Assembly: GCA_016235065.1 (NCBI GenBank)
Contig: JACRMB010000006.1
Span: 1-64,000 of the forward strand
From: Actinomycetota bacterium
GTDB lineage: Bacteria > Actinomycetota > Thermoleophilia > BMS3ABIN01
DNA length: 64,000 nt
Direction of reading: 5' to 3'
In this document: positions 9,067 through 47,170 of the stretch, piece after piece
Numbering within the stretch: position 1 is the first letter of the stretch
Layout of the letters: every line of letters begins with the position of its first letter
Position numbers and translations under genes: made by a program
The notes under the pieces: generated by a model
The model's database searches: none
What the model saw: only the letters and a program-made list of their open reading frames with translations
Told to the model about the DNA's origin: nothing

Positions 9067-11367
9067 ATGACTTACAACAGCCGCCAAAGAAGAGCCCGGC
9101 GCGGGACTTTCCCCCGGGCGAGAGCAGTCGCAGCCCTGGCGCTGCTTCTCCTGCTGGCGGCATCCCCTGCCATATCCGGCGCCTGGAACTCGGTGAGCGA
9201 AGGCCTTCCCTCCCTGGACAAGGAAGAAGCTTACCGTGCCACCGACGACACCGTCATCTACGATTCCAGCCCCACGCCCAACATCATCGCCGTGCTGCAC
9301 ACCGGCGAGAACCGGATGCTGCTCAAGCCTGAGGAGATCCCAGAGCAGATGAAGCAGGCGCTTGTGGTCATCGAGGACGACCGCTTCTACGAGCATTCGG
9401 GGGTCGATCCGATCGGCATGGCCCGCGCTGTCATGGCTAACTTCACCGAGGCCAAACTGGTCGAGGGCGGCAGCACCATAACCCAGCAGTACATCAAGAA
9501 CACCTACGTCTCCAACGAGCCGACCATGAACCGCAAGCTCAAGGAGGCGATCTACGCCTACGAGCTGGAACAGCGCTGGACCAAGGACCAGATCATCAGC
9601 GAATACCTCAACACGATCTACTTTGGCAATGGCGCCTACGGGCTGCAAGTGGCGTCAATGACATATTTCAACAAGGTGGTGTCGCAGCTGACCCTGCCCG
9701 AATTCGCGCTGCTGGCGGCGATACCCAAGTCACCCGTGGAGTTCTCGCCGTTCACCGAGCCGGAAGCGGCGACGGAGCGGCGCAACCTGGTGCTGGCCAA
9801 GATGCTGCGCCACGGGATGATCAGCCAGGAGGAATACGATTCGGCATCACAGGCGGCGCTGCCCGCACAGCCCTATCCGGTAGGCCCGGAGAGCAACGTC
9901 GCCCCCTATTTCGTGGAGTATATAAAGGAACAGCTGATCGCCCGTTACGGCACCAGACAGACTTTCGAGGGCGGACTGCGGGTCTTCACGACCCTGGACC
10001 TGGGGAAGCAGGCGGCGGCGGAAGGCGCGATCGCCTCGGTGCTCACCGAACCCGGTGACCCCAGCGCGGCGCTGGTCTCGCTGGAGCCGTCCAGCGGCTA
10101 CGTGCGCGCCATGGTCGGCGGCACCAACTTCACCGCGCAGAAGTTCAACGTGGCTACCCAGGGCCATCGCCAGCCGGGTTCGGCCTTCAAGCCGTTCGTG
10201 CTGGCGAGCGCCATGAACAAGGGGATATCCCCCGGGACGACCTTCGTCTCCGAACCCAAGCACATCAGCCTGGGCGGTGGCGGCGCCTTCTGGGATGTCA
10301 GCAATTTCGATTCGTTATATCTCGGGAAGATCAGCCTGGAGAAGGCCACCGTCTATTCGGATAACGCCGTCTACGCCGACCTGATGATGCGGGTGGGGCC
10401 GGGCTCGGTCGCCGACATGGCTCACGCGGCGGGGATCAAGACCAACTTCAGCTCCCAGCCGGCCATCGCCCTGGGCGGGCTCGACAATGGCGTCACGCCG
10501 CTGGAGCTGGCCTCGGCCTACGGCACTTTCGCCAACGGCGGGGTCAAGGTCACCGGCAGCATCGACTTCACCGGCAAGGGAGCAGACCCGATCTCGATAC
10601 TCAAAGTGACCGATTCGCATAACCAGGTCCTCGAAGAGAACAAGATCACGCCGGCGCTGGCGGTCGATCCGGTCATCGCCTATCACGTCAACAACACCCT
10701 CAAGAAGGTCGCCACGACGGGAACCAACCAGTGGAGCAACCTGGGCAGGCCCTGCGCCGGCAAGAGCGGCACTACCGAGGACCATGTTGACGCCTGGTTC
10801 TCGGGCTACACGCCGGACCTGGTGACGACGGTATGGGTGGGTTATCCGGGGCAGCGGACTTCGATGGTGGATATCCGCGGGGTGCGGGTCACCGGCGGCT
10901 CCTGGCCTTCCCAGATCTGGAACATATATATGACTCAGGCGCTGGCCGCGACCGAACCGCACGATTTCGTGAAGCCGCCGAACTCGGACCTGCAGATGGT
11001 CCAGATATGCTCGGATTCAGGCCAGCTCGCCAACAGCTGGTGCCCGAAGAAGGAATCGCGCAGCTTCTTCCCGGGACACCTGCCCACTGAGAAATGCACG
11101 CTGCACAAGGCTCAGGACCTGACCATGCCGAACATCACCGGGATGAAATTCGCGGACGCATACAAGACGGTCAGGGGCATGGGGCTGGAAGTGGATATCG
11201 CCTTCAAGTCAGACCTGACCAAACCGGCGGACACAGTAGTCGACCAGGTGCCGAAGGCGGGCGTTAAGGTGCGCCAGGGTTATAACCGGGTGACGATCAT
11301 CGTCGCCGGGAAGCCTGGCTCGGTGCAGGCGCCGGCTGAGGATAGCCCGGCTACTGAATGGGATTAG
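9067..11367 (+). CDS. Bifunctional class A penicillin-binding protein (PBP1A-like) with PASTA domain
   Basis: Protein of 766 residues from ATG 9067, where an Arg-rich N-terminus precedes a membrane anchor. The glycosyltransferase domain has EDDRFYEHSGVDPIG and GGSTITQQYIKN. The transpeptidase domain has the active-site SxxK in PGSAFKPF, the SDN motif in YSDNAVYADL, and KSGT as the KTG equivalent. A single PASTA domain follows (about residues 680-750: MPNITGMKFADAYKTVRGMG). It polymerises and cross-links peptidoglycan at the outer face of the membrane. An upstream in-frame TTG is possible, but the ATG fits the usual N-terminus better. Confidence 0.95.
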   Translation: MTYNSRQRRARRGTFPRARAVAALALLLLLAASPAISGAWNSVSEGLPSLDKEEAYRATDDTVIYDSSPTPNIIAVLHTGENRMLLKPEEIPEQMKQALVVIEDDRFYEHSGVDPIGMARAVMANFTEAKLVEGGSTITQQYIKNTYVSNEPTMNRKLKEAIYAYELEQRWTKDQIISEYLNTIYFGNGAYGLQVASMTYFNKVVSQLTLPEFALLAAIPKSPVEFSPFTEPEAATERRNLVLAKMLRHGMISQEEYDSASQAALPAQPYPVGPESNVAPYFVEYIKEQLIARYGTRQTFEGGLRVFTTLDLGKQAAAEGAIASVLTEPGDPSAALVSLEPSSGYVRAMVGGTNFTAQKFNVATQGHRQPGSAFKPFVLASAMNKGISPGTTFVSEPKHISLGGGGAFWDVSNFDSLYLGKISLEKATVYSDNAVYADLMMRVGPGSVADMAHAAGIKTNFSSQPAIALGGLDNGVTPLELASAYGTFANGGVKVTGSIDFTGKGADPISILKVTDSHNQVLEENKITPALAVDPVIAYHVNNTLKKVATTGTNQWSNLGRPCAGKSGTTEDHVDAWFSGYTPDLVTTVWVGYPGQRTSMVDIRGVRVTGGSWPSQIWNIYMTQALAATEPHDFVKPPNSDLQMVQICSDSGQLANSWCPKKESRSFFPGHLPTEKCTLHKAQDLTMPNITGMKFADAYKTVRGMGLEVDIAFKSDLTKPADTVVDQVPKAGVKVRQGYNRVTIIVAGKPGSVQAPAEDSPATEWD

Positions 11368-11400
11368 AAAAAGATTATAGGGCGCAGCCTGCTGGGCTAG

Positions 11401-12369
11401 CTACTTCTTCTTTTTGACCCGGCTATAGCGATATAGGCCGGAGCAGGGGATGATCTCCACGCCCTTCTTCTCGAGTTCGTCGAGGAAGAGATTGAGGCCG
11501 ATGGAATCGCTTGAATCGTGACCGGCGATGACCACGTTGACCTTGTACTTCTCGGCCTCTTCGCGGTTCTTCTCGCTGATATGCATGCCGATGAGGGTTC
11601 CGACTCCGGCCGCTGCGAGCTTCTCCAGTGATTCAGAGGGACCGCCGGTGCCTCCGGTCATATCCACCAGGATCTTGCCGGCGCGGCGCTTCTCGCTGCC
11701 GACTACGATGGTGGGGCCGGCGTTGTCGCGCTGGGCCATCTTGTATTCGGGATATTTGAGCAGTTCTTCCTTCACTTCCTTGAGCGTCAGCTTCTCACCC
11801 TTCTTGTCGAAATGCTTCTGAAGGTTCTGGGTGACCAGGTTGTCGCAGGGAGTGTGTACGCACATCAGGGGAATATCGAGCAGCTGGGCGGTCTGGACCG
11901 GGCGCTGGTGGTTGAGCGGCAGCATCCCGCGCATGACCTCGCTGATGCGGCCTTCGAGGACGGCCTCGCCTATGTTGATGGGAACGCCGGCGTTATACCA
12001 GACATCAGCCTGCACGTTCATGACCTCGGACAGCGAAGCAAGCGCCTTGCCCTCGGGATGATGGGCCATCACCAGGTCGACCTTGCGGCCTTTTTCCCGC
12101 AGACGGTCGGCGAGAAGAATCTCCTGGGCTTCCATGTCGACACCGACGATCAGTGACCAGACATCGGTCTGCGGGTCTCCATAAAGGATGCGGCTGTCGG
12201 CGAAAGGATTGGTGAGGCGGTCCTGGTCGTAATCTTCCTTTTCCTCGCCTTTGAGCTTGTCGAATGCTTCTTTTTCTTTGGCGAGAAGCTTGTCGACCTC
12301 GCGTTTGCCCCTGGGGTCGGACTTGATGCCCATCGTCACAGCGAGCTTATAGATCTCTTCGAGTTTCAC
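11401..12369 (-). CDS. NIF3/DUF34-like protein
   Basis: Protein of 322 residues starting at a GTG (12369) with AAAGGAG eight bases upstream; a longer frame lacks a ribosome site. It has the metal-site landmarks of the NIF3/DUF34 family: MAHHPEGKAL in the first half, and IGMHISEKN and AGHDSSDSIGLNLFLDELEKKG near the end. The N-terminal 70 residues are charged and family-divergent. Family members are suspected metal-dependent hydrolases of unknown substrate. It stands between convergent pbp and the glycosylase gene. Confidence 0.75.
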   Translation of the reverse strand: MKLEEIYKLAVTMGIKSDPRGKREVDKLLAKEKEAFDKLKGEEKEDYDQDRLTNPFADSRILYGDPQTDVWSLIVGVDMEAQEILLADRLREKGRKVDLVMAHHPEGKALASLSEVMNVQADVWYNAGVPINIGEAVLEGRISEVMRGMLPLNHQRPVQTAQLLDIPLMCVHTPCDNLVTQNLQKHFDKKGEKLTLKEVKEELLKYPEYKMAQRDNAGPTIVVGSEKRRAGKILVDMTGGTGGPSESLEKLAAAGVGTLIGMHISEKNREEAEKYKVNVVIAGHDSSDSIGLNLFLDELEKKGVEIIPCSGLYRYSRVKKKK

Positions 12370-12465
12370 TATTCCGCTCCTTTCGCGGGAAGTTTCCTGG
12401 TCGCCGTTCCGCGTTTTTGCATCCTGCAACCGGGCTAACCCCAGGTTGTAATTCCTGCCCTGCCT

Positions 12466-13071
12466 TTACCTGCTTACCAGTTTCCGGGAAAGGAAACTGC
12501 TGCCGGCGGCACAGTATCGCCAAAGCCTGTTAGTCCCTACCCTGATGCCGATCCGTGGTGTTGCCACGATCGCCGGTCTTTGCCAATCGGAATCCCGGCC
12601 GTAAACCTTGATATCACCCCGGTAAACCGGGAGCCCATACTGCTCCAGATCGATGCCGAGCGCCTGAGCCAGCTTGCCGGGGCCGTTGGTCAGGTCGTGC
12701 AGCGCATGAACCGGCGCCCGGCGGCGGCGCATCTCTTCGATTCCGTCTGTTGGCTCCAGCGCCCTTATAAGTACGGCGGCCGGTTCACCTTTCCCTTCGC
12801 AGACGATGTTGAGGAGATGGTGCATTCCGTAGGTGAAGTATACATATGCTCTTCCCGGGTCGCCAAACATGGCGCGGTTGCGTTCGGTGCGTCCGCAGGC
12901 GGCGTGGCAGGCCGGGTCATCGCGCTCGTAGGCCTCTGTTTCGACGATGATGCCGCCGACGCCTTTATGCAGGATCTTGCAGCCGATCAGCTCTTTGGCC
13001 ACCGTGTGGACGGTGCGGTCGTAGAAGGCTTTGGGGAGGAGCTTCGAAGTTTTGGGGAAGTGCTTCGGCAA
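12466..13071 (-). CDS. 3-methyladenine DNA glycosylase (AAG/MPG family)
   Basis: Protein of 201 residues, with the usual family size and motifs: an N-terminal LPKAFYDRTVHTVAKELIGC, PACHAACGRTERNRAMFGDPGRAYVYFTYGMHHLLNIV, and NGPGKLAQALGI. It excises alkylated bases in base-excision repair. The apparent start is TTG with AAGGCC upstream. Its product is unrelated to the arginine operon that precedes it on the same strand, though the gap is only 54 bases and read-through is possible. Confidence 0.92.
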   Translation of the reverse strand: MPKHFPKTSKLLPKAFYDRTVHTVAKELIGCKILHKGVGGIIVETEAYERDDPACHAACGRTERNRAMFGDPGRAYVYFTYGMHHLLNIVCEGKGEPAAVLIRALEPTDGIEEMRRRRAPVHALHDLTNGPGKLAQALGIDLEQYGLPVYRGDIKVYGRDSDWQRPAIVATPRIGIRVGTNRLWRYCAAGSSFLSRKLVSR

Positions 13072-13125
13072 CGTGGCCTTCTTTCAGTGACTGGTCAGCA
13101 AAGGAGCAGACAGGAAAAGTCGCGG

Positions 13126-14541
13126 TCATCCCAGCTCGGAAAGGGCCTCCCCCATGCTTTCAAGCCGGGAAACGGCTGCCTGCAACTGCGCCGTCACCTG
13201 CAGGTGGGCGGTGCCGCCGTAGGATTGCTTGCCGTCGATGGCGGATTGCAGGTCGACGACCTGGTAATAGGTGTCGTCGAATGAAGGTTCGACTGCGTTC
13301 AGCTCTTCCAGCGTCAGCTCGCCGAGTTTTTTATCCTCGTCGATGCACTTGCGGACCAGCTGGCCGACGACCCGGTGGGCGTCACGGAAGGGCATGCCTT
13401 TGCCCACGAGGTAGTCAGCCACGTCGGTAGCGAGGGTGAAGCTGCCTTCGGCGGCTTCGCGCATGCGATCCTTGTTCACCTGCAGCGTATTGAGCATCTC
13501 CGCCATGACCGGGACGGTGACCTGTAACGTGTCCACAGTGTCGAAGACGTAGAGTTTGTCTTCCTGCATATCCTTGTTATAAGCCAGCGGCAGGCCGGTT
13601 AGAAGCATGTTGAGTCCCTGATAGTTCGCCGCCACCTTGGCCGCCCGCGCCCGGATCAGTTCGCAGGCGTCGGCGTTCTTCTTCTGGGGCATGATGCTGG
13701 AGCCCGAGGTGAAGGAGTCGGCGATCTCGACAAAGCTGAACTCGGCGCTGCTCCAGAGGATCAGCTCCGCGGCGAGCCGCGACAGATGCATGCTCAGCGT
13801 CGAAGCGGCGCTCAGGTAGTCGAGGGCGAAGTCACGGTTGGAGACGTCGTCCATGGAGTTGTTGCCGGGCCGGTCGAAGCCGAGTTCGGCAGCAGTTTCG
13901 TCACGGTTGATGGGATAGTTGACGCCCGCCAGGGCACCGGCACCAAGCGGCATCACCTGCGCCTCGTCCAGCGCCTGCCAGAGCCGCACGTAATCGCGGG
14001 CGAACATCTCGAAATATGCCAGCAGGTGGTGGGCCAGCAATACCGGTTGGGCCCGCTGCAGGTGGGTGTATCCGGGCATAATGGTCTTGTCGTGGAAGCG
14101 CGCCAGGCTGACGACCGCGTCCATCAGGTGGAAGACGTCCGACAGGTGCTGCTTGAGGTTATCCTGGAGGAACAGGGCCAGGTCGGTCGCGACCTGGTCG
14201 TTGCGGCTCCGGGCCGTGTGCAGCTTCTTGCCGGTGCTGCCAATGATCTCGATCAGGCGTTTCTCGATTGAGCTGTGGATATCTTCGTCAGCAAGATTCA
14301 GGTTGTAATCACCGGTAGCGAACTCGGTCATGATCTGGCCGAGGCCGGTCTCGATCTCCGTGAATTCATCAGCTGTGAGCACGCCATTGTTCGAGAGCAT
14401 CCGGGCGTGGGCCATCGAGCCCTGGATGTCATAGGGGGCGAGGCGCCAGTCGAAGCTTATGGAGGCGTTCAGCTGCTCGAACAGCTCGTGGGGGGGCTGC
14501 TGGAAGCGGCCGGACCAGAATTTTTCGTTGTCTTCTGTCAT
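13126..14541 (-). CDS. argH: Argininosuccinate lyase
   Basis: Protein of 471 residues. The fumarase/aspartase-superfamily signature [18 protein letters not shown] is present, as are [17 protein letters not shown] and [10 protein letters not shown]. It cleaves argininosuccinate to arginine and fumarate, the last step of arginine synthesis. It overlaps argG by four bases and closes the operon. Confidence 0.97.
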
Positions 14542-39578: not shown

Positions 39579-39781
39579 GAACCGGATTTCATTGCTGTTT
39601 CTGTCTAATGTATTGTAGCAGCCAAAAGGCCATAAGACGAACCGTTAGATGCGGGTCATCCATGAAGTAATACTGATACCTGTGTTAACATACATCTGAT
39701 CCACCGCGAAGGTGGCCACCGTCAAAGCGCTCAGACATAGCAAATTTATTCCTAAAAATACTTTCCTCTCCCAGGACGCTG

Positions 39782-40342
39782 ATTGATGAGAAGTCCTTCA
39801 CCGCAGATCAGGAATATATCTCCACCGGCCAGGCACTAGGGGAAAAAACCAGAAGACTCTTCAACGGATCCCTGGCGATCAGGGTGGTTACCGCCGGCTC
39901 GACCAATGCCTGTGAGCAGGAACTGGTCGCCCTGGGTAACCCATATTATGACGTGGAGCGCTTCGGCGTCCACTTCGTCGCCTCCCCCCGGCATGCCGAC
40001 ATGCTGATGGTCACCGGACCGGTCTCGCGCAACATGCGCGAAGCGCTGGTCAGGACCTACGAAGCCATGCCGGAGCCCCGGATCGTGGTCGCGGTCGGGG
40101 ACGACGCTATCGATGGCGGCCTCTTCAAGGGCTCTTATGCAGTGCTGGACGGCGTCCATAATGTGATCCCGGTCGACTACCAGATTCCCGGAGATCCTCC
40201 CTCCCCCAGGCGCATCATCGGTTCGCTTCTGGCTATCCTCGGCGATCTCGACGGCTCAGCCGTTAAGATTCCCGGCGACATTAACGGCCCGACAGTGAAC
40301 ATCCCCGGCGACCATGACGGCCCGACCAAGAATAAAGCCTGA
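39782..40342 (+). CDS. NuoB/HycG-like small subunit that lacks most Fe-S cysteines
   Basis: The frame shows clear small-subunit homology: RLFNGSLAIRVVTAGSTNACEQE, DVERFGVHFVASPRHADMLMVTGPVSRNM and PEPRIVVAVGDDA. Homology begins well before the first GTG (39884), so the true start is upstream. No ATG, GTG or TTG is in frame; ATT 39782 after AGGA is my best guess. The proximal 4Fe-4S ligands are degraded: CNGC reads TNAC, GSCA reads GDDA, PGCPP reads PGDPP, so only one of four cysteines remains. The C-terminus ends in a short tandem IPGDxxGPT tail. It is the first gene of the complex, six bases before the next. Confidence 0.8.
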   Translation: MDEKSFTADQEYISTGQALGEKTRRLFNGSLAIRVVTAGSTNACEQELVALGNPYYDVERFGVHFVASPRHADMLMVTGPVSRNMREALVRTYEAMPEPRIVVAVGDDAIDGGLFKGSYAVLDGVHNVIPVDYQIPGDPPSPRRIIGSLLAILGDLDGSAVKIPGDINGPTVNIPGDHDGPTKNKA

Positions 40343-40348
40343 TCCCGG

Positions 40349-42394
40349 ATGGATTTCCTTATCACGCCAGCCGCCTATCTCATCATGCTCGCTTTCTTTG
40401 CGGCGGGAGCCCTCGGCGCCCTGCTCCTCTGGCGTAATGACAGGGCAGCTAACGCCTGGAGCCACTGGCTGGCGATCGCGGGGTCAGCTGCGGGCCTGAT
40501 CTTTTCCGGCGCGGTTCTTTACAAAGGTGTGGCGCCATCGTTCGCCGCCGTCTCGTCGCTGCCACTGCTATCGCTATCCTTCCGGATCGACCGGCTTTCG
40601 GCGTTCTTCATGCTCGTGATCTCTCTGGTGGCGCTCGCCTGTTCCATCTATGCGCTCGGCTACGTCCGCCATTACTACGGAAATTACAGCATCGGTGTGC
40701 TGGGCTTCTTCTACAACATCTTCATCGCCAGCATGATCGCCGTGGTGACGGCTCACAACGCCCTTTTCTTCCTGATAGTCTGGGAAGTGATGGCGCTGGC
40801 CTCATATTTCCTTGTGGTATATGAGAACCGCGAGCCGTCGAGTATCAGAGCCGGCTCACTTTATTTCATCATGACCCATGCCGGAACGGTGTTCATCATC
40901 ATCGCTTTCCTGCTGATGTACCGCTGCGCCGGTTCGTTTGATTTCGGCGCGCTCAGAGACGGCCTCAGCGACGCCTCGCCGCTGATGAGGAATGCCATCT
41001 TCGTCTCGGCGCTGATCGGATTCGGAGCCAAGGCCGGGATCATCCCGCTGCATGTCTGGCTGCCGAGCGCACATCCCGCCGCCCCATCCCATGTCTCAGC
41101 CCTCATGTCAGGTGTCATGATCAAGACCGGCATCTACATGATGATCCGCATCTATCTCGACTTCCTGCCCGGCTCGTACCTCTGGTGGGGCCTGGCGCTG
41201 CTTGTCGCCGGCGCGATCTCCTCCCTGCTGGGAGTACTTTACGCCCTCTCTGAGAGCGATCTCAAAAGGATGCTCGCCTACAGCAGCATCGAGAACATCG
41301 GCATCATCCTGCTCGGGCTGGGAAGCGCGCTGGTATTCCAGTCCTTCGGGTTGGACTCGCTGGCTGCACTTGGCCTCGCGGCGGCGCTCTTCCATACCAT
41401 CAACCACGCTGCTTTCAAGGCGCTGCTTTTTCTGGGCGCCGGTTCGGTCATCAACGCGACCCATACGCGCAACATCGAAAAGTACGGGGGCCTGATAAAA
41501 GTGATGCCTCAGACGGCGTTCTTCTTCCTGATCGGATCGATCGCGATCGCCGCCCTGCCGCCGCTCAACGGTTTCTTCAGCGAGTGGCTGACCTTTCAGG
41601 CGCTGTTCCAGGGAGTCATGGCCTTCGATGTGGCCACCAAAGTCGTTTTCATCCTCGCGATTGGTTCGCTGGCCTTCACCGGCGGCCTGGCCGCTGCCTG
41701 TTTCGTCAAGGCGTTCGGCATCACTTTCCTGGCGCGCCCCCGCAGCGAGCAGGCAATGCACGCCAGTGAGTCAGCGCGCTCCCTGCTGGTGGCGATGGCT
41801 GGATTGTCGCTTGTCGTTGCCGGGCTGGGACTCTTCGCAGGCGTGGTCCTGGGTGAGCTGACGCCGGTAGCGGGCAGCCTCGCGAACCTTCGAGGCGCCC
41901 AGGCCGCCGATGTGGCCGGATTCAGGTCAGTCAGCATCGAGGGCGGATTCGCATCAGTCTCGATGCCAGCCCTCTTCTTCGGCCTGGCGGCCGTGATCGC
42001 CACCGTTGCTGTCGCGGTCAGGATTCTGGCCCGGCGCAGGAAGGTCAGGACCGGCCCCACCTGGGACTGCGGCACCGACCTCACCCCGCGCATGGAGATC
42101 AACGCTGAGGGATTCTCCCGCTCGCTGATCACCGTCATGCGGGGAGTGCTCAGGCCCAGCAGTGAGACCGAGATCGAGTATCACGACGCCAGTGGCTATT
42201 TCCCCCGGATCGGCACGGTCACCATGGGCCTGCACGACATCTATCAGACTTATATCTACAAACCCCTGCGGGACCTGACGACCATGGTCGCCGGCCAGGT
42301 GACGAAAGTGCAGAGCGGCAACGTCAACGCCTATATCCTCTACATCTTCCTGACCCTGATCGGCCTGCTGTTCTTCCTGGATGTGCAGTCATGA
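40349..42394 (+). CDS. NuoL/HyfB-like antiporter-type membrane subunit
   Basis: Protein of 681 residues with about 14-16 transmembrane segments. Key charged residues of the ion-translocating fold are kept: glutamate in VWEVMALASYFLVV, and lysines in GFGAKAGIIPLHVWLPSAHPAAPSHVSALMSGVMIKTGIY. The C-terminal part holds a long extension ending in a hydrophobic anchor, as in HyfB. In related complexes this subunit moves H+ or Na+. It overlaps a short frame at 42391. Confidence 0.9.
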   Translation: MDFLITPAAYLIMLAFFAAGALGALLLWRNDRAANAWSHWLAIAGSAAGLIFSGAVLYKGVAPSFAAVSSLPLLSLSFRIDRLSAFFMLVISLVALACSIYALGYVRHYYGNYSIGVLGFFYNIFIASMIAVVTAHNALFFLIVWEVMALASYFLVVYENREPSSIRAGSLYFIMTHAGTVFIIIAFLLMYRCAGSFDFGALRDGLSDASPLMRNAIFVSALIGFGAKAGIIPLHVWLPSAHPAAPSHVSALMSGVMIKTGIYMMIRIYLDFLPGSYLWWGLALLVAGAISSLLGVLYALSESDLKRMLAYSSIENIGIILLGLGSALVFQSFGLDSLAALGLAAALFHTINHAAFKALLFLGAGSVINATHTRNIEKYGGLIKVMPQTAFFFLIGSIAIAALPPLNGFFSEWLTFQALFQGVMAFDVATKVVFILAIGSLAFTGGLAAACFVKAFGITFLARPRSEQAMHASESARSLLVAMAGLSLVVAGLGLFAGVVLGELTPVAGSLANLRGAQAADVAGFRSVSIEGGFASVSMPALFFGLAAVIATVAVAVRILARRRKVRTGPTWDCGTDLTPRMEINAEGFSRSLITVMRGVLRPSSETEIEYHDASGYFPRIGTVTMGLHDIYQTYIYKPLRDLTTMVAGQVTKVQSGNVNAYILYIFLTLIGLLFFLDVQS

Positions 42395-42459
42395 GTCTGA
42401 TACGCCCGGAAACTGACGGCGCGCTCAGACAAATCGCGTTTGCCGGGGAGAGCCGATGA
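42391..42459 (+). CDS. 22-codon frame bridging the hyfB- and hycD-like genes
   Basis: ATG 42391 overlaps the stop of the upstream gene as ATGA, and its own stop (TGA 42457-42459) overlaps the ATG of the downstream gene. The sequence MSLIRPETDGALRQIAFAGESR shows no family. It may be a translational coupling element or a remnant; protein function is doubtful. Confidence 0.3.
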   Translation: MSLIRPETDGALRQIAFAGESR

Positions 42460-43391
42460 CGCTGACAGAAATAACCTGCTGGCTTCTGCAGCTCCTGCTT
42501 GTGCCGGCGCTGTCGCCGCTCTTCGTCGGGTTGACCCGCAAGCTCAAGGCGCGGCTGCAGAGCCGCCGGGGCGCCGGGATCCTCCAGCCATACCGTGACC
42601 TCCGCAAACTGTTCAACAAGGACGAGGTCATCAGCGAGGACGCCTCCTGGCTGTTTCGCGCAGCACCATATCTGATCTTTGCGGTCACCATCATCATCGG
42701 CGCCAGCATCCCGCTTTTCTCGACTGTGCTATCTAACACCTACACGGGGGATTTCCTGGTAGTGGTCTACCTGGTGGCTCTGGGGACTTTCTTCCTCGCC
42801 CTGGCGGGTCTCGATACCGGCGGCGCCTTCGGAGGCTTCGGCTCCAGCCGCGAGATGATGGTAGCTGCACTGACCGAAGGCGGCCTGGTGCTGTCGCTCC
42901 TGGTGCTGGCACTCATCAGCGATACCACCAGTCTCACCGGCATCTCCGAGAACATCGGCGACCTGTCGTTCACGAGTTTCACGCCTATCATCCTGGCATT
43001 TATCAGTTTCTCCATAGCCCTGCTGGCGGAGAACAGCCGCTACCCGTTCGACAATCCATCCACCCATCTCGAGCTGACCATGATCCACGAAGCCATGATC
43101 CTGGAGTATTCGGGAAAACGGCTGGCGCTGATCGAGTGGGCATCGGCCAACAAGTATCTGATCTTCATCGCTCTGGGAGCGAACCTGTTCTTCCCCTGGG
43201 GGATAGCCCACTCGCTCGACCTTCCGTCCATCCTGCTCGCGCTAGCGCTGCTGATCGTAAAAGTGACGCTTTTCTGCCTGGCGATCGCTATCATCGAATC
43301 CAGCATAGCCAAGCTGAGGATATTCCGTCTGCCGGACCTGCTGCTGACATCTTTTGTCATCAGCGTCATCGCCCTGGGTCTGGTGAGCTGA
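42456..43391 (+). CDS. HycD/HyfC-like (NuoH-type) membrane subunit
   Basis: Protein of 311 residues, eight predicted transmembrane helices. The conserved acidic stretch is AENSRYPFDNPSTHLELTMIHEAMILEYSGKR, the diagnostic HycD/NuoH motif that couples the peripheral and membrane arms. The N-terminal loop RRGAGILQPYRDLRKLFNKDEV is also typical. Confidence 0.95.
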   Translation: MTLTEITCWLLQLLLVPALSPLFVGLTRKLKARLQSRRGAGILQPYRDLRKLFNKDEVISEDASWLFRAAPYLIFAVTIIIGASIPLFSTVLSNTYTGDFLVVVYLVALGTFFLALAGLDTGGAFGGFGSSREMMVAALTEGGLVLSLLVLALISDTTSLTGISENIGDLSFTSFTPIILAFISFSIALLAENSRYPFDNPSTHLELTMIHEAMILEYSGKRLALIEWASANKYLIFIALGANLFFPWGIAHSLDLPSILLALALLIVKVTLFCLAIAIIESSIAKLRIFRLPDLLLTSFVISVIALGLVS

Positions 43392-43395
43392 CTCC

Positions 43396-44052
43396 ATGTC
43401 TCACCTGAACCAGCAGACCCTGTTACTGTTCGCAACTGTCATCTTCATGCCGGCGGTACTGCTGCACCTGACCCGGAAGAACACCGCCGCCGTCCTCCTG
43501 TATATGGTCCAGTCGTCAGCGATAGCCCTGCTGCTCGCCCTTTCATCGTTCGAACGTTTCTCGCCGCTGCTGCTCCTGGCAGTAGTCGCTACCGTGGCGG
43601 TCAAGCTCTTCATCGCGCCGTATTTCTTCTTTGGCCTGATCAAGCGGCACGAGCTGAGATTCTCAGTCAGCACTTACCTGAACACTCCCGTATCACTGCT
43701 GGTCATCGCCGCGCTGCTGGCGCTCACCCAGAGCGATTTCTTCGAGACCCTGGCGGTCCTGGCCCAGTCGAGCGAGGCGTCGCTGAGCCTGTGCTTCTCG
43801 ACCATCCTGATATCTCTGTTCCTGAGCATCAACCGAAGGGGCGCGCTCTCCCAGATGATCGGGATACTCTCGCTTGAGAACGGCATCGTCGCCTTCGCCC
43901 TTTTCGCCGGCCTTGAGCAGAGCCCGGGCCTGCAGCTGGGCGTGACATTCAACATCCTCATCTGGGTTGTGATCGCTACTGTCTTCGCCTCGATGATCTT
44001 CCGCAAGTTCGGCTCACTCGACGTCACCACCATGAAGAAGCTGAAGGGCTGA
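43396..44052 (+). CDS. HyfE-like (NuoK-related) membrane subunit
   Basis: Protein of 218 residues with about seven transmembrane helices. Conserved segments: FFGLIKRHELRFSVSTYLNTPVSLLVIAALLALTQ and QMIGILSLENGIVAFALFAGLEQ. It matches HyfE of hydrogenase-4 and the HycP product of mycobacteria. It lies four bases after hycD. Confidence 0.85.
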   Translation: MSHLNQQTLLLFATVIFMPAVLLHLTRKNTAAVLLYMVQSSAIALLLALSSFERFSPLLLLAVVATVAVKLFIAPYFFFGLIKRHELRFSVSTYLNTPVSLLVIAALLALTQSDFFETLAVLAQSSEASLSLCFSTILISLFLSINRRGALSQMIGILSLENGIVAFALFAGLEQSPGLQLGVTFNILIWVVIATVFASMIFRKFGSLDVTTMKKLKG

Positions 44053-44054
44053 GC

Positions 44055-45512
44055 GTGGCTCTCATCATCCTCATCGCCGCGCCGCTGCTCGCCGCCCTGG
44101 CCTCACTGGCGGTCCGGAAACGGGTCGCTATCCTCGAGCTGATCGCGGCGGTCACGGCTCCGATCGAATTCGCTGCGATCGTGGTGATCCTCAATGGGGT
44201 TTACCGGGATGGCCGCTGCGATTTTGGTACATATCTTTCGGCTGACGCCCTGGGTGCGGTCGTACTGATCACCATCGGCCTGGTCGGCCTGGCCGCGGCC
44301 TTCTATTCCATCGGATACCTGAGGGAAGAAGTGCGGAAGGAGATAATCGGCTTCAGCCGCGTTCGCCAGTACTGGGTGCTGTTCCATCTTTTCCTGATGG
44401 CGATGTTCTTCGCTGTCATAACCGTCAGCCCGATCATGATGTGGATCGCAATCGAGGCGACCACTCTCTCCACCGCTTTCCTTATCAGTTTCTATAACAA
44501 GGCTTCCTCCATGGAGGCCGCCTGGAAATATCTGATCATCAACTCGATCGGGCTGCTGCTGGGATTTTTCGGGACGCTGCTGTTCCTGACTCCCGAGCAG
44601 GGTTCAGGCATGGAAAAGTTCGTTGATTGGGCAGCGCTGGCTGAAAGCGCCAGCTCGATGAACCCGTCCCTGGTGAAGATCGCCTTCATATTCGTTCTGA
44701 TAGGTTATGGCACCAAGGTCGGCCTCGCTCCGATGCACACCTGGCTGCCTGACGCTCACAGCAAGGCGCCGTCGCCGATAAGCGCCCTGCTTTCAGGCGC
44801 GCTGCTCAACGTCGCCATGATGGCCATCCTCAGATTCAGAATCGTCGCCGACGGCGCCGTCTCGCCATCGTTCACAAGGAACCTGATGATATATTTCGGC
44901 GTCGTCTCGATCGCGATCCCCGCCTTCATCATCGTCGTCCAGAAGAACTACAAACGCCTCTTCGCCTATTCCAGCATCGAGCACATGGGCATCATCTCGC
45001 TGGGATTCGGCTTCGGCGGGATCGGCGCCTTCGGCGCCCTGCTGCATATGATCTACCACTCCATGGTCAAATCGGTGCTGTTCTTCTCCGCCGGCAACCT
45101 GTTGCTGAAATATGGGTCCACTAAGATATATAAGGTGAAGGGAGCACTTTCGGTGCTGCCGGTCACGGGCGTGGTTCTGATCGTGGGATTCCTAGCCATC
45201 ACCGGCATGCCGCCGTTCGGGATCTTTATTACTGAGTTCTACATACTGACTGCGGGCGTCACCGCCCATCTGCCGGTGGTGATCGGGGTGCTCTTCCTGC
45301 TGCTACTGGTGTTCGCCGGATTCCTCAAGCATATCGTCGGCATGATCTACCAGTCTGAGGCGGAAGTACCTGCGGAAACCAGCGGCGAATCCAACTTGCT
45401 GACAATAGTACCACCAGTATTATTATTGCTCCTGTTCATCGCCGCCGGTTTTTATCTGCCGGTGCCGGTCAGGTCGCTGATCGACTCAGCGGCCGCGATG
45501 TTAAATGGATAA
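44055..45512 (+). CDS. HyfF-like (NuoN/M-type) antiporter membrane subunit
   Basis: Protein of 485 residues from GTG 44055, with about 14 transmembrane helices. Conserved: MMWIAIEATTLSTAFLISFYN with its glutamate, and GYGTKVGLAPMHTWLPDAHSKAPSPISALLSGALLN with its lysine and histidines. These are the ion-channel residues of complex I-like antiporter subunits. Operon gap to upstream gene is two bases. Confidence 0.93.
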   Translation: MALIILIAAPLLAALASLAVRKRVAILELIAAVTAPIEFAAIVVILNGVYRDGRCDFGTYLSADALGAVVLITIGLVGLAAAFYSIGYLREEVRKEIIGFSRVRQYWVLFHLFLMAMFFAVITVSPIMMWIAIEATTLSTAFLISFYNKASSMEAAWKYLIINSIGLLLGFFGTLLFLTPEQGSGMEKFVDWAALAESASSMNPSLVKIAFIFVLIGYGTKVGLAPMHTWLPDAHSKAPSPISALLSGALLNVAMMAILRFRIVADGAVSPSFTRNLMIYFGVVSIAIPAFIIVVQKNYKRLFAYSSIEHMGIISLGFGFGGIGAFGALLHMIYHSMVKSVLFFSAGNLLLKYGSTKIYKVKGALSVLPVTGVVLIVGFLAITGMPPFGIFITEFYILTAGVTAHLPVVIGVLFLLLLVFAGFLKHIVGMIYQSEAEVPAETSGESNLLTIVPPVLLLLLFIAAGFYLPVPVRSLIDSAAAMLNG

Positions 45513-45535: not shown

Positions 45536-47170
45536 ATGCAAATAACTGAAATCATCAAGCGATATATCCCCCACTACGCGGAAGCGACAAGCCACGGACG
45601 ACTGATCACTTTCGAGGTGCAGCCGAGCGAGATCGTGGCTGTTGGCGAGAGCCTCTACACCCACCACCAGACGCCGCTGAAGATCATCACCGCTTTTGAC
45701 GAGCGGCAGGAAGGCGGCAAGTTCCGGATCATGTATGTGTTCGGGCTGCCCGGCGAGAACCTGTTCCTCGCGCCATACATCATGGTGGATGAAGAATTCC
45801 CGTCACTGACCCCATCGTTTCATGAGGCGTCTATCTACGAGCGCAAGATCAGAACGTTCTTCGGTCTGAGACCTGCCGGCCATCCGAACCCGCGGCCGCT
45901 GATCCTCCATGAGAACTGGCCCCAGGATTTATTCCCCCTGCGAAAAGATTTCGACTGGCGGTCGAGACCGGAAACAGCCACAAGTGATTTCCAGTTCAGG
46001 AAGCTCAGCGGTGAGGGCATCTATGAGATCCCTGTCGGACCTGTTCATGCCGGCATCATCGAGCCCGGCCACTTCCGCTTCAGCGTCGCAGGCGAGGAGA
46101 TACTGCTTCTGGAGCCAAGGCTGGGCTATTCCCACAAGGGTAGCGAGAAGCTGTTCGAGGTATTGCCGATAGCCGACAAGATCAGGCTGGCGGAACGTAT
46201 CTCCGGCGACAGCAGTTTCAGCCACGCGCTGGCGTTCTGCCAGGCGCTGGAATCGTTGAGTGATATGGCGGTGCCAGAGCATGACGAATATTTGCGCCTG
46301 GCTTTCTGCGAACTGGAGCGCCTGGCCAACCACCTTGGCGACATCGGCGCCATCATGACTGACACCGGCTTCAACTTCGGTGGCGCCCAGTGCGGCCGCC
46401 TGCGGGAGGCCGTCATGCAGCTCAACGAACGGCTCACCGGCAGCCGCTTTCTGAGGGGCATCGTAAAAGTCGGTGGCGTCAGCCATGACATCCAGGCGAA
46501 CATCTCAGTCGAGACAGCGGATGAAACCATCGCCTTCCTCGGAGCCCTAAGGAAGGATTTCGACGAGGTGATAGCGGTCGCCGCAAGAAGCAACACTCTG
46601 ACCGACCGGCTGACGAATGCTGGTGTGCTTTCACATTCGATAGCCTGCGACCACGGGGTACTCGGAGTCGCCGGCAAGGGATCAGGCATGGCTGCCGATG
46701 CCCGCGTCGATTATCCCTACGGGGCCTATCATAAGATGAACGTCGAGGTCTGCACGGAACAGGATGGCGATGTCCATGCCAGGTTCAGTGTGCGGATCAG
46801 GGAAGTGCCTGGCTCTATCGAGATGATATGTCAGGCGCTTGGCGAGCTGATGCACGCAAGGACTGACCGACCGCTACATGATAAAGTCTATCCTCCGACC
46901 CTGACCCGGTCGTTAGAGTTCGAAACCGAGTCGGATTCGATCCCGTTAAAGAAAGATGCCTTCGCGATCGGCATCGTCGAAGGCTGGCGCGGCGACATCG
47001 TCTACCTGGTCGCCACTGATGCCAGTGGAAAGATCAGCCGGGTCGACGTGCGCGATCCCTCATTCCTGAACTGGACGGCACTGGGTTATGCCGGGCAGGA
47101 TAACATGGTCCCTGACTTCCCCCTGATCAACAAGAGCTTCAATCTGTCTTATTCAGGGAACGACCTTTAA
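45536..47170 (+). CDS. HycE/HyfG-like large subunit (NuoC-NuoD fusion) lacking Ni ligands
   Basis: Protein of 544 residues. Residues 1-150 form the NuoC-like domain (EEFPSLTPSFHEASIYERKIRTFFGL). The NuoD/HycE-like core follows (PVGPVHAGIIEPGHFRFSV, RLGYSHKGSEKL). The L1 motif reads ERISGDSSFSHALAF where hydrogenases have RxCGxC, and the L2 motif reads DPSFLNW where they have DPCxxC. All four cysteines are lost, so a NiFe site is not possible. A GTG three bases earlier is an alternative start. The gene terminates the operon. Confidence 0.92.
   Translation: MQITEIIKRYIPHYAEATSHGRLITFEVQPSEIVAVGESLYTHHQTPLKIITAFDERQEGGKFRIMYVFGLPGENLFLAPYIMVDEEFPSLTPSFHEASIYERKIRTFFGLRPAGHPNPRPLILHENWPQDLFPLRKDFDWRSRPETATSDFQFRKLSGEGIYEIPVGPVHAGIIEPGHFRFSVAGEEILLLEPRLGYSHKGSEKLFEVLPIADKIRLAERISGDSSFSHALAFCQALESLSDMAVPEHDEYLRLAFCELERLANHLGDIGAIMTDTGFNFGGAQCGRLREAVMQLNERLTGSRFLRGIVKVGGVSHDIQANISVETADETIAFLGALRKDFDEVIAVAARSNTLTDRLTNAGVLSHSIACDHGVLGVAGKGSGMAADARVDYPYGAYHKMNVEVCTEQDGDVHARFSVRIREVPGSIEMICQALGELMHARTDRPLHDKVYPPTLTRSLEFETESDSIPLKKDAFAIGIVEGWRGDIVYLVATDASGKISRVDVRDPSFLNWTALGYAGQDNMVPDFPLINKSFNLSYSGNDL

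Follow-up and report, generated by a model that had tools for sequence, protein, structure and literature searches.

Closest described systems

Respiratory complex I and the group 4 hydrogenases are the classic examples of ion pumping powered by redox energy. Energy-converting hydrogenase-related (Ehr) complexes without ligands for the Ni-Fe site are already well known (PMC6349859, PMC10284858, PMC10432482). According to the main text of a 2020 paper by Jaffe et al. (PMC7304191), the Ehr complexes of Patescibacteria (CPR), a group of tiny symbiotic bacteria, form a clade of their own and have none of the L1 and L2 cysteines. Almost all members of the Patescibacteria possess an F-type ATP synthase but lack a respiratory chain, and reviews regard the role of the enzyme as unresolved (PMC11665869, PMC9166423, PMC8080830).

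The stretch of DNA analysed here (64,000 nucleotides, referred to as the window) comes from a Thermoleophilia genome of 2.37 Mb that is 98.9% complete and has a separate NuoB and NuoD pair. It carries an operon for a membrane complex of the Ehr kind. The subunits are of the same kinds as in Ehr complexes, the HyfB-, HyfC-, HyfE- and HyfF-like membrane subunits are present with their ion-path residues, and the group 4-like large subunit (L) lacks the Ni-Fe ligands and falls inside the Ehr branch. The difference lies in the small subunit (S): the four cysteines of the N2 cluster are intact in nearly all other Ehr complexes examined, with a few partial exceptions, whereas the clade of the window complex has lost three or four of them.

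Comparison with better known machines gives a similar mixture of likeness and loss. The complex shares homologous subunits and fold with E. coli formate hydrogenlyase (FHL) and Hyf (HycE, HycG, HyfB-G), and the best PDB hit of S (FHL subunit 7) and that of L are both from FHL (7z0s); but FHL has a Ni-Fe site, Fe-S clusters, a ferredoxin subunit and a formate dehydrogenase, none of which is found in the window operon. The core is also homologous to that of respiratory complex I (NuoB, NuoCD, NuoH, NuoL/M/N) and conserves its ion-path residues, but the N2 ligands, the NADH module and equivalents of the quinone-site residues His38 and Tyr87 of Thermus NuoD are all missing. Mrp cation/H+ antiporters resemble it in having antiporter-type membrane subunits without redox centres. 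To our knowledge, however, Mrp antiporters have no NuoB- or NuoCD-like peripheral subunits, and the window complex, with both S and L, is not a member of that family, whose subunit set is MrpA-G.

The CPR clade of Jaffe et al. 2020 (PMC7304191) is probably the same as that of the window complex, being monophyletic, apart from other Ehr and without L1 or L2 cysteines. Relative to the main text of that paper, the loss of N2 ligands from S, the link to ATP synthase and the members outside CPR are described only here. No report of the first two was found in the open literature, PMC7304191 being represented there by its main text.

Operon and membrane subunits

Six genes lie together in the order S-B-C-E-F-L:

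39710..40345 (frame), + strand: S, NuoB/HycG-like small subunit without N2 ligands (PF01058, E 1.9e-25)
40349..42394, + strand: B, HyfB-like antiporter subunit (NCBIfam PRK06521, 692 bits, cut-off 667)
42456..43391, + strand: C, HyfC/HycD/NuoH-like subunit (PF00146, E 6e-47)
43396..44052, + strand: E, HyfE-like subunit (PRK11492, below cut-off)
44055..45512, + strand: F, HyfF-like antiporter subunit (PF00361, E 7e-49)
45536..47170, + strand: L, NuoCD/HycE-like large subunit without Ni-Fe ligands (ATG at 45536, stop at 47170)

The same gene order occurs in Rhodococcus, in the relatives of the window operon and in nearly all Patescibacteria copies. In the Moranbacteria set (L121, L128 and L131) the C open reading frame is about 530 amino acids long, a length that fits a C-E (HyfC-HyfE) fusion. 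No open reading frame for a ferredoxin-type electron-entry subunit (HycB/HycF type) was found between 39.5 and 49 kb of the window.

Nearly every charged residue of HyfB, HyfF and HyfC that is conserved among Ehr complexes and active hydrogenases is the same in the clade without N2 ligands. The window operon keeps E148, K230, K261, H351, H355, K359 and E414 of HyfB, the conserved acidic residues D133, E146, E154, E205, D212, E219, E225, E230 and E294 of HyfC, and E180, K267, K346 and K385 of HyfF (numbered in the stop-to-stop frame). HyfE shows the clearest change: a Glu present in most Ehr and hydrogenase proteins is Gln in 10 of 11 N2-less complexes; in the window clade the conserved Glu183 has become Gln and Asp189 has become Asn. 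The C-terminus of HyfE shows a weak likeness to MrpC-type subunits (E 0.002), and since a PDB search returned only weak matches of that type, equivalence of Glu183 with NuoK Glu72 is not established.

The large subunit has lost its Ni-Fe site

The L open reading frame carries the Pfam domains Complex1_30kDa and Complex1_49kDa (NuoC-like and NuoD-like). Three short sites matter for its chemistry, each placed by alignment with E. coli HycE (7z0s_E):

46193..46225, + strand: L1 site, ERISGDSSFSH, both Cys replaced by Ser
47054..47071, + strand: DPSFLN, residues 507-512, aligned with HycE AATYAN and not the L2 site
47141..47158, + strand: true L2 site, NLSYSG, equivalent of HycE DPCYSC

An earlier note on this gene claimed that all four cysteines binding Ni-Fe had been replaced, and the alignment bears this out, with S223, S226, S538 and G541 at the ligand positions. 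The sequence that it gave as L1, RISGDSSFSH, pairs with RVCGICGFAH of HycE, which puts S223 and S226 in the places of the two L1 cysteines. Its L2 site, DPSFLN, was misplaced: HycE DPCYSCTD pairs with the C-terminal NLSYSGND of L, and the L2 cysteine positions are therefore S538 and G541 of NLSYSG (residues 536-541). SGDS and SYSG thus stand where group 4 [NiFe] hydrogenases and FHL have the CxxC motifs of L1 and L2, and the SGD within L1 is invariant. A check for other cysteine pairs able to bind Ni-Fe found no cysteine of L conserved across the clade; S likewise has none, and isolated conserved cysteines remain only in HyfB.

The replacements in L are seen again in independently assembled genomes from the genus and the family, as well as across Patescibacteria, which rules out chance or an assembly artefact as the cause of ligand loss. 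With the Ni-Fe ligands absent and the protein of Ehr type in the tree, the earlier view, by which both a hydrogenase and a formate hydrogenlyase are excluded, stands. The expectation that automatic annotation would call it HycE is doubtful. No NCBIfam large-subunit model passes its cut-off against L, the best sub-threshold models are NuoD-like, and relatives of L are annotated as 'NADH-quinone oxidoreductase subunit C' or 'nickel-dependent hydrogenase large subunit'.

In the alignment with Thermus NuoD, His38 and Tyr87 correspond to Ile175 and Gly224 of L, so the quinone-site His and Tyr are not kept. The fold is kept: the AlphaFold model of L (pLDDT 81, pTM 0.85) finds HycE (7z0s) as its best match in the PDB, with a TM score of 0.79-0.81.

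The small subunit has lost its N2 cluster

Loss of the N2 ligands from S, which the earlier note had missed, is the more important of the two losses. The positions concerned are:

39902..39904, + strand: former N2 ligand 1, Cys replaced by Thr (GSTNACE versus GSCNGCE)
39911..39913, + strand: the only Cys left at an N2 position (Glu in CPR relatives L121, L128, L131 and L173-L176)
40103..40105, + strand: former N2 ligand 3, Cys replaced by Asp (GDDA versus GDCA)
40193..40195, + strand: former N2 ligand 4, Cys replaced by Asp (PGDPP versus PGCPP)

The proximal N2 [4Fe-4S] cluster is thus left with one of its four cysteines, and the positions read Thr, Cys, Asp and Asp (STNACE, GDDA, PGDPP) where most relatives read SCNGCE, GDCA or GACA, and PGCPP. 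Window relatives belonging to two genera share the exact Thr-Cys-Asp-Asp pattern, and all readable S proteins of the nearest Patescibacteria (Daviesbacteria, Magasanikbacteria, Staskawiczbacteria, Levybacteria and further MAGs) have the same pattern with Thr or Asp first. A sister set that includes Moranbacteria carries Thr/Ser-Glu-Gly-Asp/Asn at these positions; the cysteine that the window retains is Glu in some other CPR as well, and L177 is without all four. An S-like match was found in 13 of 380 sampled Patescibacteria genomes, 10 of them clearly N2-less and two canonical, while the remaining one is ended by a contig edge and starts like the N2-less ones.

Within the window clade the dN/dS of the S core is about 0.02-0.10, which signifies strong purifying selection. 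The AlphaFold model of S, built from nine sequences, has a pLDDT of 51 and is too poor for inspection of the site.

The start of the S gene is unusual. Between 39689 and 39884 there is no in-frame ATG, GTG or TTG before the GTG at 39884, and conserved sequence begins about 45 codons earlier. In the closest relative (L198) S starts with ATG (MATTEEPTDIANLFLKIL), and near that position the window has an out-of-frame GTG. A frameshift by one base within the N-terminal part, which is not conserved, or an error in sequencing, or an atypical start codon would seem to account for this.

Changes at N2 positions also occur elsewhere. Ehr-like subgroups represented by L058 (a second copy in its genome, G013), L051 and L052 have partial changes (PGNPP; ACGPACGGG with PGSPP) together with unusual L1 sites (ERFAATTAFAH, ERVSGTDSFAQ). 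The small subunit of a Rokubacteria Ehr (L092) reads AGSPNCCEIE at the first N2 motif, possibly a shift or loss of one ligand. A group 4 hydrogenase from a Chloroflexi MAG (L118; S match 11889-12371, L match 10001-11500) has all its Ni-Fe cysteines intact and a small subunit that is joined to a ferredoxin domain with two [4Fe-4S] clusters and reads GSDNSCDWE, GDEACGGG and PGDPP; judged from these motifs, it is apparently a separate N2 ligand loss in which the Ni-Fe site was retained.

Distribution and descent

The operon is patchily distributed, occurring in four of six further species of the genus and in one of 12 others of the family; no other close copies were found among 399 genomes of the class, and no relatives on viral contigs. 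Trees were built from 74 large subunits and from five concatenated proteins with the ligand columns removed. L falls within the Ehr-type part, which has no Ni-Fe ligands, and outside the active group 4 enzymes, as the earlier note had anticipated. In both trees the N2-less complexes form one clade inside the Ehr part (support 93; 97/99), with the Thermoleophilia complexes sister to those of Daviesbacteria (support 99; 100/100).

Apart from the Thermoleophilia host, which nests inside it, the N2-less clade contains only Patescibacteria, and a constraint holding CPR together without the window rows was rejected (p 0.003). Kinship with actinobacterial or mycobacterial forms, the latter named in the earlier note as one possible grouping, did not survive: in a comparison without Rv0087 itself the closest relatives are Patescibacteria, and vertical inheritance or grouping with other actinobacterial Ehr was rejected (AU p 0.0002). 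Read most simply, the trees indicate that the operon reached a Thermoleophilia lineage by transfer from a donor of Patescibacteria type. Contamination is unlikely, since the GC content of the operon is not distinct from that of its flanks and its neighbours are common to some relatives.

Association with ATP synthase

F1Fo-ATP synthase genes adjoin or flank the operon in 8 of the 19 CPR loci with readable surroundings, with examples in both sub-clades; the other 11 have no ATP synthase nearby. The operon lies about 0.1-0.9 kb downstream of atpA-atpG-atpD-atpC at six loci (L070, L075, L121, L128, L131 and L232), sits between atpC and atpD at L069, and is near atpC/atpD at L073. The linkage therefore spans several lineages and three arrangements, although through shared ancestry the eight loci are not eight independent events. 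The same scan found ATP synthase genes at none of 65 other Ehr or group 4 hydrogenase loci (L080-L147 minus L121, L128 and L131), some of which have short flanks. No other neighbours are shared across the clade. On one contig only (L075, Magasanikbacteria) the operon is immediately followed, at 11768-13587, by genes for a CBS-domain protein and a CitMHS/ArsB-type transporter.

An ATP synthase c-subunit is encoded in all nine CPR genomes tested, and the readable ones show no Na+ motif by eye and were taken as the H+ type. HypD is absent from six CPR genomes that carry the operon. The L121, L128 and L131 genomes do encode HypD and may hold a separate active hydrogenase.

The operon of the window genome has no adjacent ATP synthase. 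That genome has two ATP synthase c-subunits (G000:C3:381053-381241 and C2:109576-109767), one N-ATPase-like (PALAEGR ... MIESIAIY, probably Na+) and one of the ordinary type. A link between the complex and the N-ATPase of the genus was considered and dropped, there being no correlation: the N-ATPase-type c-subunit also occurs in species without the complex, and the second of the two types likewise turns up in members of the genus that lack it.

Predicted function

The redox parts that are missing can be read directly from the sequence: the Ni-Fe site, the N2 cluster, the ferredoxin-type subunit and the quinone-site His and Tyr. The best explanation of the whole, to which we give somewhat better than even credence, is that the complex is redox-dead and would work as an ion translocator. 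On this explanation a six-gene membrane complex with its origin in the Ehr branch of the group 4 hydrogenases and complex I would have abandoned redox chemistry, its NuoB- and NuoCD-like subunits persisting as a folded, selected peripheral module. Because the antiporter-like B and F, the NuoH-like C and HyfE keep nearly all ion-path charged residues, the complex most likely moves ions. It may be an Mrp-like exchanger of H+ and a cation (Na+ or K+) that the peripheral module gates, regulates or scaffolds. Points against the explanation are the replacement of HyfE Glu183 by Gln, which could mean altered coupling, the window operon and 11 CPR loci with no ATP synthase beside them, and the lack of correlation with the N-ATPase-type c-subunit. 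In Patescibacteria the complex would probably cooperate with the F1Fo-ATP synthase, either using the proton gradient from ATP hydrolysis to export cations and control pH, or converting a cation gradient into a proton gradient.

Ion flow might instead be driven or gated by a non-redox ligand (a divalent cation, a nucleotide, CO2/bicarbonate or another metabolite) bound in the old N2/Ni-Fe region, an idea for which the recruitment of NuoL-like subunits by other systems, DabB and Mrp, offers an analogy. The changes from Cys to Asp or Glu are conserved within sub-clades and put carboxylates at the old cluster site, and the invariance of SGD also fits; but the candidate site is drawn from sequence and the S model offers no view of it, and we consider this alternative unlikely. 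The strong conservation of the peripheral subunits needs explaining, and might be accounted for if the module were still redox active, with another cofactor or an unlinked partner protein replacing N2. Other NuoB-like proteins are indeed present in the Thermoleophilia genomes. However, as far as MAG incompleteness allows a conclusion, the N2-less S is the sole NuoB-like protein encoded by four of the CPR MAGs that carry the complex, and the replacement residues are acidic or polar and differ between sub-clades, which makes a surviving redox role quite improbable.

There is a case for an ordinary Ehr oxidoreductase in which electrons passing through S and L to some acceptor power the ion pump, a mechanism that has been proposed for other Ehr. 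The gene set and order match Ehr operons of other phyla, such as that of Rhodococcus, the trees put the complex inside the Ehr branch, Ehr are suspected to be pumps driven by redox reactions (PMC6349859), and in Geobacter they are more abundant on formate (PMC7894505). Against this, three of the four N2 ligands are Thr or Asp and the fourth is Glu in relatives, no other cysteine is conserved in S or L, and the operon has no ferredoxin-type subunit. Since normal Ehr keep the N2 ligands that S has lost, we regard an ordinary Ehr oxidoreductase as very improbable. That the operon is a decaying relic without function, as the vanished metal ligands and the lack of an ordinary start codon for S might suggest, is scarcely credible given six open reading frames intact over conserved regions, ion-path residues invariant across phyla, and purifying selection on S.

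Significance

Returning to the ion translocator, we see a fuller picture, whose chances we put a little short of even, as that of a complete complex I-type machine without electron transfer, tied genetically and functionally to the F1Fo-ATP synthase of Patescibacteria as its ion-gradient partner, and transferred at least once into Actinomycetota. The ATP synthase of Patescibacteria has no known power source, and the complex could be a candidate for its missing partner; an ion-translocating complex beside or within the ATP synthase genes would be a concrete one in the lineages that have it. A relative from which the electron path has been removed while the ion path stays under selection would also be a clean object for studying the role of the peripheral arm, and for asking whether the membrane arm works without redox chemistry.
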